From Gammaproteobacteria bacterium (GTDB lineage Bacteria > Pseudomonadota > Gammaproteobacteria > SZUA-229), in NCBI GenBank assembly GCA_029881795.1, contig JAOULX010000002.1, positions 186,001 to 250,000 on the forward strand: a stretch of DNA of 64,000 nt, given 5' to 3'. Positions 48,147 through 53,529 of this stretch are shown piece after piece (the first letter of the stretch is position 1; each line of letters opens with the position of its first letter). The notes under the pieces are model-generated. The model saw only the letters and a list, made by a program, of their open reading frames with translations. It searched no databases and was not told where the DNA came from. Both the position numbers and the translations under genes were made by a program.

Positions 48147-48743
48147 ATGAGTAAAAGTGATAAGAAACATGCTGCTATTATTTCTGCTGCAAAAGTGGCC
48201 TTTAAGGATCAGGGGGTTAAAGCGAGCAGTATGGATAAAATCGCTGAAATGGCTGGCGTTTCTAAACGCACGGTGTATAACCACTTTGCAACCAAAGAAG
48301 CGTTAGTGTTACATATTTTATCGACATATTCAGCCAGTGCGGCAATCGATGCAAAGCTGATCTACTCGAGCAATACTTCGCTTGATAAGCAGTTAATCGC
48401 CCTGCTTGAAACTGAAATTAACATCCTCGGTGATCAGGACTATCTCGATATGATCAGAGTAGCGTTTGGTCATTTTTACTGTCACCCTGATGAATTAAAG
48501 GATGCGATCGAAAAGTTTGATCGCGATGAAACTGCTCTGCATGTCTGGTTAAAAGCAGCGGTAGATGATCAGAAACTAAAGCCAATGGATATTGATTTTG
48601 CCGTTACTCAGCTTCTTAATCTTGTGAAAGGGAGTTGTTTCTGGTCGCAGTGGTTAAAGATCAATCCTGTTTTAAACCAACAACAGAAACATTTTCTTGC
48701 GCAGGAATCTGCTGCTATGTTTCTGAGTCGTTATCAAATTTAA
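48147..48743 (+). CDS. TetR/AcrR-family transcriptional regulator
   Basis: A 198-residue regulator with the N-terminal helix-turn-helix MDKIAEMAGVSKRTVYNHFATKEALVLHIL (about residues 29-58). The C-terminal ligand domain is helical, with NLVKGSCFWSQWLK near the end, as in the AefR-like class. A palindromic operator lies just upstream, so autoregulation is likely. The LpxR-type gene begins 30 bp downstream and is probably controlled with it. Confidence 0.9.
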   Translation: MSKSDKKHAAIISAAKVAFKDQGVKASSMDKIAEMAGVSKRTVYNHFATKEALVLHILSTYSASAAIDAKLIYSSNTSLDKQLIALLETEINILGDQDYLDMIRVAFGHFYCHPDELKDAIEKFDRDETALHVWLKAAVDDQKLKPMDIDFAVTQLLNLVKGSCFWSQWLKINPVLNQQQKHFLAQESAAMFLSRYQI

Positions 48744-48773
48744 TCCCCTTCTTTTTAGCAGCTACTGGAACTA

Positions 48774-49760
48774 ATGATGAAAAATCTGTTGTTGGTAATT
48801 AGCATTCTGTTAATTTTTTTTAATGTAAAACATGCGCAGTCTAAAACAGACTGGGTATCCTTTACTGTTGATAATGATATTTTTCTGAAATCAGATAGTG
48901 GTTATACCAATGGTTTTTCTCTAACCTGGTATGATCTTAACGAGGGATATTACAAGACAACGCCAAATGCTATTGTGGCGCCGTTATTATGGAGTGTTTC
49001 GCTGTCGAATTACAGTAAGGTGTATGAGGCAAATACCCTGGCTCAAATTATGATGACGCCTGAAGATATATCACAAACCAGCCCGCCAACAAATGATATG
49101 CCGTATTCCGGGCTGCTTGTTTATAACTATGCCTATGTTGCGAGTAATTCACGATATGCAGACCTTATCAGTACCGCGATTGGTGTGGTAGGTTCTGCGT
49201 CGGGTGCAGACAGTTCACAGTCGCTGGTGCATAATGTCACACATAGTGAACAGCCCAATGGCTGGGATACTCAGTTGAATAATGAGCTGGTTTTTATGTT
49301 TATTCGTGGCCGTGTCTGGAGAAACTGGGTCTCGTCAAACCGGCGCATGGATTTTTTAACACATGCAGAAATAAAGCTGGGCACTATCATGACGGTGGTT
49401 AACAGTTCGTTTATGTTTCGTTTTGGCAAAGGGCTTGGTGCGACTTATACAACGCCTTTGTTAAATGCCACACGAATAACCAATCCTGTATCTATTGAGC
49501 GGGGATGGTTTGCCTATGCAGGTGTGAATGCGGCTTATGTCTTCCATCAGATTTTTACTGATGGAAATACCTTCACCGAAAGTCACTCCGTCGACTATAA
49601 GCACGAAGAAATTGGTATCACAGCTGGCTTGGCGTATTCGTGGCATGATGTTTCGATAACCTTTTCTCTTAATGACTTTAATGTGCTGGCAAGTCAGGGT
49701 GACACGGCACTGAATGATGCCACAAGTTATGGCTCAGTGACCCTAGCGTGGAAGTATTAG
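48774..49760 (+). CDS. lpxR: LpxR-family lipid A deacylase
   Basis: A 328-residue outer-membrane barrel with a signal peptide (about residues 1-23). WVSFTVDNDIFLKSDSGYTNGFSLTW holds the conserved Asn, Asp and Thr of LpxR active sites, and VTHSEQPNGWDTQLNNEL has the His block. LpxR removes the 3'-acyl groups from lipid A in Salmonella. The C-terminus SYGSVTLAWKY ends in an aromatic residue. Downstream of a TetR gene with an operator; regulated remodelling of lipid A is a fair guess. Confidence 0.85.
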   Translation: MMKNLLLVISILLIFFNVKHAQSKTDWVSFTVDNDIFLKSDSGYTNGFSLTWYDLNEGYYKTTPNAIVAPLLWSVSLSNYSKVYEANTLAQIMMTPEDISQTSPPTNDMPYSGLLVYNYAYVASNSRYADLISTAIGVVGSASGADSSQSLVHNVTHSEQPNGWDTQLNNELVFMFIRGRVWRNWVSSNRRMDFLTHAEIKLGTIMTVVNSSFMFRFGKGLGATYTTPLLNATRITNPVSIERGWFAYAGVNAAYVFHQIFTDGNTFTESHSVDYKHEEIGITAGLAYSWHDVSITFSLNDFNVLASQGDTALNDATSYGSVTLAWKY

Positions 49761-50808: not shown

Positions 50809-51474
50809 TCAGGGGATCTGCTGATACGGCAATCCCGCCAGTTTCCATTCCGGAAAACCGTCTTCTAACCGATGGGCTTTTAAGCCTTTTTCTCTTAGCT
50901 TGGCAACAGCATCAAAAGCTAAAATACAGTGCGGTCCACGGCAATAAGCGACGATATCATGTTCACTATCGAACTGTTCTAGATGTGACTCAAGCTCACT
51001 CAGAGGGATATTGACTGCGCCGGGTACATGACCGGCGGCGTATTCTTCGGCCGGGCGCACATCGAGTACCGTCACCAGACCTTGTTTCACGCGCTGCAGT
51101 AATTCTTCACGCGGTATCGGCTCCAGTTCGTCTTTAACCGTGAGGTAGGTGTTAACCAGTTTATCCACCTCGGCGATATGACGTTCGGCAACACCGCGCA
51201 CGGTGTCTAACAGCTGTATCACATCATCACCGCTGAGCCGGTAAAACACCTTCAGGCCTTGCTTGCGGGAACTTACAAGCCCGGCCTGTCTCAAATGTTG
51301 AAGGTGTTGAGAGGTATTGGCCACACTTAAACCGGAAACTTTGGATAAGTCATCGACACTGCGCTCTCCCTGGGCAATGAATTCCAGCAGTTCCAGTCGG
51401 TTGGCATGGCTCAGGGCTTTGCCAACACGGGCAAACTGACTGAACAGGTCTTGTTTGAAATGTGAGCTTGACAT
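50809..51474 (-). CDS. ArsR-family regulator fused to a rhodanese domain
   Basis: A 221-residue two-domain protein. The N-terminal winged helix (about residues 10-95) has ALSHANRLELLEFIAQGERSVDDLSKVSGLSVANTSQHLQHLRQAGLV, the ArsR pattern. The C-terminal rhodanese (about 115-215) has DVRPAEEYAAGHVPGAVNIPL and the active loop CRGPHC, with two cysteines. A fusion of this kind probably senses persulfide or another oxidised sulfur species on the rhodanese cysteine. It faces the sterol-desaturase gene over a 111-bp region with two inverted repeats and is the likely local regulator. Confidence 0.88.
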   Translation of the reverse strand: MSSSHFKQDLFSQFARVGKALSHANRLELLEFIAQGERSVDDLSKVSGLSVANTSQHLQHLRQAGLVSSRKQGLKVFYRLSGDDVIQLLDTVRGVAERHIAEVDKLVNTYLTVKDELEPIPREELLQRVKQGLVTVLDVRPAEEYAAGHVPGAVNIPLSELESHLEQFDSEHDIVAYCRGPHCILAFDAVAKLREKGLKAHRLEDGFPEWKLAGLPYQQIP

Positions 51475-51500
51475 CAGTTAAATTTCCACTATTCTACCAA

Positions 51501-51546
51501 TCAAGTAATTAATTGAATATAAGATCGCTATCATTTGATTATAGCG
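51501..51546. promoter_or_regulatory. Two inverted repeats in the ArsR-rhodanese / desaturase divergent region
   Basis: TCAAGTAATTAATTGA (51501-51516) is an imperfect palindrome, and CGCTAT (51526-51531) with ATAGCG (51541-51546) is a perfect 6-bp repeat spaced by nine. Both lie between the divergent starts (51474 and 51586) and are candidate operators of the ArsR-rhodanese protein. Confidence 0.5.
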
Positions 51547-51585
51547 CTCAGAACCGAACTGACAAGAGTAATTTGAGGCAACAGC

Positions 51586-52455
51586 ATGTCGATTGATGAA
51601 TTAGTAATGAATTATGAGAAAGAAATTCGTATGGCTTTCTTTTTTGGCATGTTGGCTATTATTGGCCTTTGGGAAATCGTTGCGCCAAAACGGGCCTTAA
51701 CCGTGTCAAAGACAGTACGCTGGCTGAATAATCTGGGGCTGGTATTCTTTAATAGTTTCATCATACGTCTTGTCTTGCCGATGGCGGCGGTAGGTGTTGC
51801 TACGATTGCTCAGCAAAATAGCTGGGGTCTGCTCAATAATATTGAGATGCCGGTCTGGTTAGCGGCGCTGCTGGCCATTGTGATTATGGATCTGGTGATC
51901 TACATCCAGCACGTTATGGTACATGCCATTCCGCTGTTATGGCGTTTGCACCGGGTGCATCATGCCGACCCGGATTATGATGTGACGACAGGTGCACGTT
52001 TTCACACCCTTGAAATTATTCTTTCGATGGGCATCAAGTTCGCTACGATTGTATTGCTGGGGCCGGCAGTGTTTGCCGTGGTGATATTCGAAGTGATTCT
52101 AAATGCCACCGCAATGTTTAATCACGGCAATATTCGTTTGCCTGCTGCGCTCGATAAAGTGCTGCGGCTGTTTCTGGTGACACCTGATATGCATCGTGTG
52201 CATCACTCAATCGAAGATGATGAAACCAATAGTAACTTCGGCTTCAGTCTGCCGTGGTGGGATCGATTGTTTGGAACCTATCGTGAGCAGCCGCGGGCAG
52301 GCCATCAAGCGATGACGATCGGTATTCGTTCATACCGTTCGGCAAAAGATGTGTCATGGATTAGCGGCATGTTGACATTGCCTTTTAAAGGCAAGATCAG
52401 TGACTACGCGATTAATCGTCGAAGCTGGAATGATAGCCAGAAAACCGATAACTAA
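51586..52455 (+). CDS. Sterol desaturase / fatty acid hydroxylase superfamily membrane protein
   Basis: A 289-residue membrane protein with helices at about residues 17-35, 48-75 and 85-115 and the histidine cluster of di-iron hydroxylases: HVMVH, HRVHHAD, FNHGN and HRVHHS. WWDRLFGTYREQP is a further family mark. Substrate is not predictable; members act on sterols, fatty acids, carotenoids or alkylglycerols. It follows a divergent ArsR-rhodanese regulator and precedes a VTT-rhodanese gene, so lipid or sulfur stress is a possible link. Confidence 0.88.
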   Translation: MSIDELVMNYEKEIRMAFFFGMLAIIGLWEIVAPKRALTVSKTVRWLNNLGLVFFNSFIIRLVLPMAAVGVATIAQQNSWGLLNNIEMPVWLAALLAIVIMDLVIYIQHVMVHAIPLLWRLHRVHHADPDYDVTTGARFHTLEIILSMGIKFATIVLLGPAVFAVVIFEVILNATAMFNHGNIRLPAALDKVLRLFLVTPDMHRVHHSIEDDETNSNFGFSLPWWDRLFGTYREQPRAGHQAMTIGIRSYRSAKDVSWISGMLTLPFKGKISDYAINRRSWNDSQKTDN

Positions 52456-52566
52456 AGAATCACTCGCGCAAAAGTGGTGTGCCATTTTCAGTCATCGGAA
52501 ATGGCATGTTAATTTTTTCAAACAAGCCATGGCTTGTTTGATCAGTAATATGAAGATATAAAAAAA

Positions 52567-53529
52567 ATGAACAAAACCTTTATACGACTTGTTGTTTTTC
52601 TGGTCTTAGCATCCGGCATTGCACTGGCACTTTTTTACCGTGAATCACTTGATGTGGTGGTGCTGGAAACCTGGATTAATGATGCCGGTTTTGCCGGGCC
52701 TTTGGTATTTATGTTGCTGTATATTGCAGGCACGGTTTTGTTTTTTCCAGGCTCAGTGTTAACGCTGGCCGGCGGCGCGTTATTTGGCCCTGTCATGGGG
52801 ACTTTTTATAACCTGACGGCTGCGACCATCGGCGCGATGATTTCATTTATCGCCGCACGTTATCTGGCGCATGACTGGGTTGAGAAAAAAACTGCTGGCC
52901 GGCTCAAATCAATTAAACAGGGGGTAGAGGCAGAAGGCTGGAAATTTGTGGCGTTTGTTCGGCTGGTGCCGTTATTTCCTTTTAATTTGCTGAACTATGC
53001 GCTGGGGCTGAGCAACATCAAACTGCTGCATTATTCAGTGACCAGTTATCTTTGCATGTTACCCGGAGCGATTGCTTATACTTATATGGGGTATGTGGGG
53101 CGTGAAGCTCTGGCAGGTGATGAGGCGCTGATTCAGAAAATTATGATAGCAGTGGCTTTACTGGCAGTGGTCAGTTTTTTACCAGGTCTTATCGCAAAAC
53201 TGCGTAGCATCCCGATGCTCAGTGTTGATGAGCTTAAACAAAAACTGGATGGCGCTGAAGATATGTTATTACTTGATGTACGTTCGGCTAATGAATTTAT
53301 TTCAGAGCAGGGCCATATATTAGGTGCGCAATTAATGCCACTGGAAGAACTGGCAACAAATCTTTCGACGTTTGATGATTATCGGAATAAACAGGTGCTG
53401 CTCATTTGTCGTACCGACCGCCGTTCTGCAAAGGCGGCCAGACTGCTAATGCACAATGGTTTTACTGATGTCCGGGTAGTGAGGCAGGGCATGACCGACT
53501 GGAACAAAAAATCCTACCCGGTTAGTTAA
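52567..53529 (+). CDS. TVP38/TMEM64 (VTT-domain) membrane protein fused to rhodanese
   Basis: A 320-residue fusion. The N-terminal part is a DedA-like VTT membrane domain with FPGSVLTLAGGALFGPVMGTFYNLTAATIGAMISF and FVRLVPLFPFNLLNYALGLS (about residues 55-150), and several helices to about 215. The C-terminal rhodanese (about 225-318) has LLLDVRSANEFISEQGHILGA and the loop CRTDRRSAK with one cysteine. Same strand as the desaturase gene, 111 bp downstream. Such fusions recur in proteobacteria, with no proven role; persulfide handling at the membrane is possible. Confidence 0.88.
   Translation: MNKTFIRLVVFLVLASGIALALFYRESLDVVVLETWINDAGFAGPLVFMLLYIAGTVLFFPGSVLTLAGGALFGPVMGTFYNLTAATIGAMISFIAARYLAHDWVEKKTAGRLKSIKQGVEAEGWKFVAFVRLVPLFPFNLLNYALGLSNIKLLHYSVTSYLCMLPGAIAYTYMGYVGREALAGDEALIQKIMIAVALLAVVSFLPGLIAKLRSIPMLSVDELKQKLDGAEDMLLLDVRSANEFISEQGHILGAQLMPLEELATNLSTFDDYRNKQVLLICRTDRRSAKAARLLMHNGFTDVRVVRQGMTDWNKKSYPVS

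Follow-up and report, generated by a model that had tools for sequence, protein, structure and literature searches.

Reactive-sulfur-sensing proteins of the ArsR family are marked, in the available excerpt of one account, by a pair of cysteines in helices alpha2 and alpha5 (PMC10509353), and SqrR, BigR and SoxR are portrayed likewise in excerpts of others (PMC9995734, PMC7315123, PMC10451225). Here we describe an ArsR-type regulator with a different cysteine arrangement, encoded together with two membrane proteins in a 64,000-nucleotide stretch of a gammaproteobacterial genome (assembly GCA_029881795.1, contig JAOULX010000002.1, positions 186,001 to 250,000; hereafter, the window). The regulator, a winged helix with a C-terminal rhodanese (50809-51474, minus strand; 221 residues), is divergent from a membrane enzyme of the PF04116 fatty-acid-hydroxylase superfamily, termed here FAH (51586-52455, plus strand; 289 residues), which is followed by a fusion of a VTT domain to a second rhodanese (52567-53529, plus strand; 320 residues). 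All three architectures had been proposed in an initial annotation of this DNA and are borne out by Pfam, and the three open reading frames (ORFs) sit exactly where that annotation had placed them. The genome (a 2.9 Mb assembly in 27 contigs) also encodes SoxB. Our tentative proposal, to which we give a probability of about 0.4, is that the trio supplies the regulation and the membrane functions of an arsenosugar/arsenolipid module gated by sulfur.

As far as the available excerpts describe SqrR, BigR, HlyU and SoxR-sHdrR, the regulator resembles them in its ArsR winged helix, its dithiol and the inverted repeats in the intergenic region, perhaps also in its company of sulfur genes, and differs from them in that its cysteine pair sits in the fused rhodanese, its winged helix lacks cysteine and its cargo is another one. 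Judged from its sequence, the regulator may work like SqrR and BigR with the dithiol moved to the fused rhodanese, yet it fails their defining feature. Its best sequence match among solved structures is PDB 2kko/3gw2, a 'possible ArsR-family' protein (E 2.3e-25, profile positions 5-101) that has the winged helix in common with the regulator and is a 108-residue chain without the rhodanese part. To our knowledge this chain covers the N-terminus of a longer ArsR-rhodanese protein from mycobacteria, and we know of no sulfur or arsenic role for it.

The two membrane proteins have their own closest counterparts. In the excerpt available (PMC10127716), DedA/VTT proteins of COG0398 are most often fused to disulfide oxidoreductases, and fusions of DedA to rhodanese are noted for COG0586. 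The present protein shares with the COG0398 cases the VTT domain and, at some loci, an oxidoreductase neighbour (fused in one, L246); unlike the cases in that excerpt, its rhodanese is fused to a COG0398-like VTT domain and adjoins FAH. For arsenosugars, the first steps of synthesis are those of ArsS and ArsM, with a radical S-adenosylmethionine enzyme adenosylating arsenic, and the available excerpts on the cyanobacterial ArsS/ArsM pathway name neither a PF04116 enzyme nor a rhodanese-type regulator (PMC8552651, PMC12159101). In relatives of the trio, genes for ArsS, ArsM and the TIGR04282/TIGR04283 families adjoin FAH or FAH-VTT. Among the literature matches listed (titles and beginnings of abstracts), none described an ArsR-rhodanese switch, the trio, a PF04116 enzyme that takes part in making arsenosugars, or a link from sulfur sensing to the synthesis of arsenic-containing sugars or lipids. 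We know of no enzyme identified as converting arsenosugars to arsenolipids, and FAH, a conserved predicted membrane oxygenase within arsenosugar gene clusters, is a concrete candidate for this step. If our proposal is true, a repressor with its sensing dithiol in a fused sulfurtransferase would be a design unlike that of the known sulfur-sensing ArsR proteins, and its pairing with these genes would hint at how arsenic chemistry is tied to sulfide exposure in sulfur oxidisers.

Linkage of the trio and of arsenosugar genes

The initial annotation had made its proposal depend on linkage of the three genes elsewhere, and a gene-neighbourhood check found them linked: the trio is, almost certainly, a conserved unit. 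Among the best 80 of 502 regulator relatives (the named loci, which by this choice are close relatives), FAH lies divergently within 600 bp of the regulator in 72 and VTT within 4 kb in 57, with both present in 54; less than 1.3 kb of sequence remained in 6 of the 23 VTT misses and 2 of the 8 FAH misses. Nearly all of these relatives are from metagenome-assembled genomes (MAGs), and their records are labelled as gammaproteobacterial or, less precisely, as proteobacterial; they include Thiohalobacter, Thiogranum, Chromatiales and the isolate Thiohalophilus thiocyanatoxydans DSM 16326, which has the trio (L097). A single MAG is the source of both L056 and L095, and some loci probably duplicate genomes of the other sets. 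Near-full-length orthologues of the regulator occur in 21 of 40 genomes, the window's own included, and in 20 of these 21 FAH adjoins the regulator divergently, VTT likewise being present in 20, the exceptions being L029, without FAH beside the regulator, and L012, which stops at a contig edge. In a set of 274 genomes from this class, the regulator occurs at 87 places, spread over 78 genomes; FAH is within 600 bp at 48 or more of these, VTT within 2.5 kb at 43 or more and both at 40 or more, and at least 44 of the 46 VTT-rhodanese places adjoin FAH and at least 39 are near the regulator (lower bounds, because the weakest FAH and VTT rows were left out, 123 and 72 rows being used).

In the same 274 genomes, FAH tracks ArsS: it is present in 115 of the 138 genomes with ArsS and in 20 of the 136 without (odds ratio 29, p 3e-32). 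The odds ratio is 51 among genomes with SoxB and 19 among those without, and it reaches 39 (p 5e-21) with one genome per family (158 genomes), the subset by which alone these genome-level co-occurrence tests allow for phylogeny. SoxB, which has a similar frequency, gives odds ratios of 2.6 with FAH and 3.0 with ArsS. In at least 30 genomes, no more than 15 kb separates FAH from ArsS, on the same strand in all 30, where a rough estimate (30 kb in 3 Mb) would expect about one.

At individual loci, some of which were chosen by hand, partly for their ArsS linkage, so that counts from them are not a sample, FAH is flanked by TIGR04283 and TIGR04282 glycosyltransferase genes (L211, L212, L245, L247 and L254) or is followed by ArsS and both glycosyltransferases (L209), by ArsS and an ArsM-like gene (L208 and L210), or by an ArsM-like gene (L250 and L252). 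Arsenosugar genes are linked to regulator and FAH together in L205, L213 and L214. The first of these, from the window's own family, carries the regulator and, divergent from it, FAH, VTT-rhodanese, ArsS, a TIGR04283-TIGR04282 fusion and an arsenite methyltransferase scoring over its cut-off; in L213 the regulator is divergent from FAH, ArsS, an ArsM-like gene and both glycosyltransferases. Family scans placed the ArsS genes and the glycosyltransferases of L209, L212, L245 and L247 above their cut-offs and the ArsM-like proteins of L208 and L212 below, and the calls in L211, L250, L252 and L254 are from BLAST. The balance tips somewhat towards an arsenosugar or arsenolipid role for FAH.

By its profile match (FA_hydroxylase PF04116, 6.2e-29, 101.5 bits, cut-off 31) and its histidine boxes (His109, 113, 122, 125, 126, 140, 180, 203, 206 and 207, each conserved in 95% or more of 75 aligned sequences), FAH qualifies as a predicted PF04116 di-iron oxygenase. 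Its sole NCBIfam match is the profile NF052566 of OlsE, a member of the same superfamily, at 92 bits; this is far below the cut-off of 475, and FAH was not accepted as an OlsE ornithine-lipid hydroxylase. A search of solved structures with FAH returned a chance-level match to JukB alone (E 0.82 and 0.57), and the structure predictions for FAH (mean predicted local distance difference test score, pLDDT, 46.9) and VTT-rhodanese (64.2, with only the rhodanese part good) were too poor for use. In a FastTree phylogeny, arsenosugar-linked, trio and unlinked FAH rows fall together, apart from most distant paralogues; the smallest IQ-TREE clade that contains all 59 of those rows also includes two paralogues (SH-like approximate likelihood ratio test, SH-aLRT, 76), and the approximately unbiased (AU) test did not reject the 59 rows, a group defined after the first tree was inspected, as one clade (p 0.68).

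The VTT-rhodanese protein matches VTT_dom (2.1e-26) and Rhodanese (8.5e-17), and Cys281 in its loop CRTDRRS is invariant in 18 aligned fusions. Its sequence pattern suggests a COG0398-like VTT part; a reading as a COG0586 undecaprenyl-phosphate (UndP) flippase was set aside because the segment PGSVLTLAGG lacks an acidic residue, a judgement from sequence pattern only, with no family search. At L195 (3559-5451, plus strand), a single frame with VTT, rhodanese and DsrE domains is a likely triple fusion beside the regulator, and at L246 (6929-9082, minus strand) the VTT domain is fused to a pyridine-nucleotide-disulfide oxidoreductase and adjoins ArsS. The FAH and VTT genes overlap or nearly touch in many relatives, unlike in the window, where a terminator-like hairpin with a T run (52475-52511) lies between them.

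The regulator and its operator candidate

The regulator matches HTH_5 (6.9e-11, 42.3 bits, cut-off 22) and Rhodanese (9.9e-18) and passes the ArsR/SmtB family profile NF033788 (79.3 bits, cut-off 55). In an alignment of 19 of the 21 regulator loci (L014 and L020 were left out), its sole invariant cysteines are Cys177 and Cys182, in the rhodanese loop CRGPHC (50929-50946, minus strand). This two-cysteine loop, as CRGP[HYF]C, recurs in all 132 regulator loci, a set that contains repeats, and on a recount of distinct sequences (117 regulators, 116 upstream regions) in all 117 regulators, down to 42% identity. Both rhodanese fusions carry a loop cysteine of the predicted catalytic type. The winged helix of the window's regulator has no cysteine, nor is any invariant there across the 19 aligned rows; in their first 100 aligned residues, 82 of the 132 loci have none, 48 have one and 2 have two. 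Close relatives with FAH mostly have the loop in the form CRGPHC, and regulators without FAH (L161-L180 and others) mostly in the form CRGPYC, with L141 carrying the tyrosine despite FAH and L163 the histidine without it. Regulator copies with in-frame stops were seen in G076:C119:4207-4857 (four stops) and in G287:C479, which is L163 (one stop).

The company kept by the regulator points in part to sulfur oxidation: SoxB is found in 62 of the 78 class genomes with the regulator and 53 of the 196 without, and in 42 of the 45 with VTT-rhodanese and 73 of the 229 without. A recognised sulfur gene, however, lies nearby in only 5 of the 17 fetched regulator loci that lack FAH (DsrE in L166 and L179, TauE in L170 and L177, Sulf_transp in L173). 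Clustering of neighbours across 81 loci gave a DsrE-type cluster on the FAH strand (21 loci), a c554-like multihaem cytochrome (13), a TauE-like protein (10) and ArsS (10), names that rest on one scanned representative each and, for TauE, on the similar L177 protein; a MerA-like disulfide oxidoreductase motif occurs in 12 of the 80 named loci. In all 13 of its loci the c554-like cytochrome (PF13435) is encoded beyond the trio region on the downstream side; in three of them (L099, L103 and L108) it precedes a MerA-like oxidoreductase. The regulator is likely a sulfane-sulfur-responsive repressor, with persulfide as the presumed signal. The initial annotation had seen here a sulfur-responsive switch over membrane lipid modification; its first half has some support from this sulfur company (SoxB, and DsrE, TauE or Sulf_transp), which points to sulfane sulfur, and its second half was too generic, as FAH tracks ArsS clusters and at some loci sits inside them.

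The divergent region, with a median length of 121 bp in the named loci, contains in the window a sigma70-like promoter predicted for FAH (TTGACA-16-TATTCT, 51468-51495, plus strand; 10 of 12 consensus matches) and another for the regulator (TTGTCA-16-TATAAT, 51538-51565, minus strand; 11 of 12, by consensus match only), and TTGACAT is invariant in 16 aligned upstream sequences, the window's among them. Two inverted repeats had been reported within 51475-51585. Both are present, but only one, at about 51498-51519, is conserved in relatives; the other (51523-51549), which lacks conservation and overlaps the -10-like box of the regulator, was dropped. The conserved palindrome, with the consensus TATTCAA-N8-TTGAATA and the window copy CAATCAAGTAATTAATTGAATA (51498-51519), is with high confidence a well-suited candidate for the operator. 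Its core, TCAA-N8-TTGA, precedes 114 of 131 regulator genes, where Markov shuffles would give about 1. Among distinct upstream regions the core is present in 99 of 116 (0.95 expected): in 91 of 96 at regulator identities of at least 63% and in 8 of 20 below 63%. Of the 76 named loci that bear the core, 73 have TTGAC[AT] before it, and in 61 of these 73 the core begins 33 nt downstream of the first base of the -35 box; with a spacer of 16-17 nt, this distance places the palindrome on the predicted transcription start of FAH, a classical site for a repressor, and it also falls shortly inside the regulator's own predicted transcript. Scans of the window's own genome found 4 exact sites (backward control 2) and 21 with up to two mismatches (control 13), the three further exact sites lying within ORFs in two cases and at an ORF start in contig C16 in the third, and neither scan revealed a convincing regulon there.

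Proposed mechanism and competing readings

In the sulfur-gated module that we propose, a dimer of the ArsR-rhodanese protein would bind TATTCAA-N8-TTGAATA when sulfane sulfur is lacking. Because the operator candidate straddles the predicted FAH start and lies inside the regulator transcript, FAH with VTT-rhodanese and the regulator itself would be repressed, and in relatives this repression would extend to the downstream genes for ArsS, glycosyltransferases, ArsM and DsrE. Sulfane sulfur would load Cys177 and bridge or pass to Cys182, upon which the DNA would be released. FAH, as a di-iron enzyme in the membrane, would then oxygenate a lipid or a lipid-linked arsenosugar intermediate, the VTT domain would carry the lipid across the inner membrane, and the rhodanese fused to it (with DsrE where present) would hand persulfide sulfur to or from the pathway. 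We infer all five of these elements: the repression, the sulfur ligand, the substrate of FAH, the lipid transport and the sulfur transfer. A bolder version holds that FAH is an unrecognised oxygenase of bacterial arsenosugar (phospho)lipid synthesis under a new rhodanese-dithiol switch, with VTT-rhodanese(-DsrE) moving the arsenolipid and thiolating or dethiolating it, so that sulfur would be wired to arsenic metabolism; this we consider unlikely.

Several observations weigh against the proposed module. The arsenosugar cluster is not linked to the trio in the window, the ArsS and glycosyltransferase genes of this genome being on other contigs (C10 and C12), and the operator core was not found in the 18 kb around that ArsS gene. 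ArsS is absent from 20 of the 135 genomes with FAH, and FAH from 23 of the 138 with ArsS. No recognised arsenosugar gene lies beside FAH in 13 of 20 loci (L235-L254) and in 9 of 9 others (L187-L194 and L200), together 22 of 29. Of the 20 distinct regulators below 63% identity, 12 are not preceded by the operator core, the cysteine pair of the SqrR/BigR type in alpha2 and alpha5 is absent from the regulator, and 12 of the 17 FAH-less regulator loci show no recognised sulfur gene. Finally, VTT-rhodanese and ArsS are not associated within genomes that have both FAH and SoxB (p 0.65), so that the rhodanese parts seem tied to sulfur oxidation and FAH to the arsenosugar genes.

The unlinked ArsS of the window genome and the 22 of 29 loci would be expected if the trio were a sulfane-sulfur-responsive lipid module without arsenic, in which FAH hydroxylates the head group of an ordinary lipid, VTT moves that lipid, and the link to arsenosugar genes reflects a shared lifestyle or a shared lipid substrate. 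OlsE hydroxylates ornithine lipids, and it is the only NCBIfam match of FAH, though at 92 of 475 bits. Against such a module speak the position of FAH between TIGR04283 and TIGR04282 genes in five loci and beside ArsS or ArsM elsewhere, as well as its odds ratio of 29 with ArsS against 2.6 with SoxB, and we consider an arsenic-free function unlikely.

The ArsR family membership of the regulator, its two conserved loop cysteines and the ArsS/ArsM genes downstream in relatives would also fit a regulator whose CRGPHC dithiol responds to trivalent (methyl)arsenicals, with the rhodanese fold as a scaffold only; at L197, moreover, the regulator is followed on the same strand by an ArsR-like gene (judged by eye) and an arsenite methyltransferase over its cut-off. 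However, the same cysteine pair occurs beside sulfur genes, with no arsenic gene recognised, in L166, L173, L177 and L179, the regulator is strongly associated with SoxB, and a second rhodanese lies within the same gene run, all of which makes arsenical sensing improbable. A plain sulfide/persulfide detoxification unit with FAH and VTT as passengers, an early idea of ours that lost weight after the arsenosugar-gene results, is very improbable, since despite DsrE, TauE-like, SQR-like, cysteine desulfurase and multihaem cytochrome neighbours at some loci, FAH is the most constant partner of the regulator (72 of the 80 named loci) and FAH-VTT pairs occur without any rhodanese (9 of 26 VTT-only rows, one of the 26, G268, ending at a contig end).

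Neighbouring features

On the 3' side of the trio, the window encodes HtpX and then a DUF302 protein. A TetR-type regulator followed by an LpxR-like gene (48147-49760) places a further putative outer-membrane lipid modifier near the trio. Four loci with FAH and no VTT (L076, L080, L081 and L092) carry downstream a set resembling heavy-metal RND efflux, judged by eye; some neighbour names used here (SQR-like, RND efflux) rest on such by-eye reading or on weak matches.

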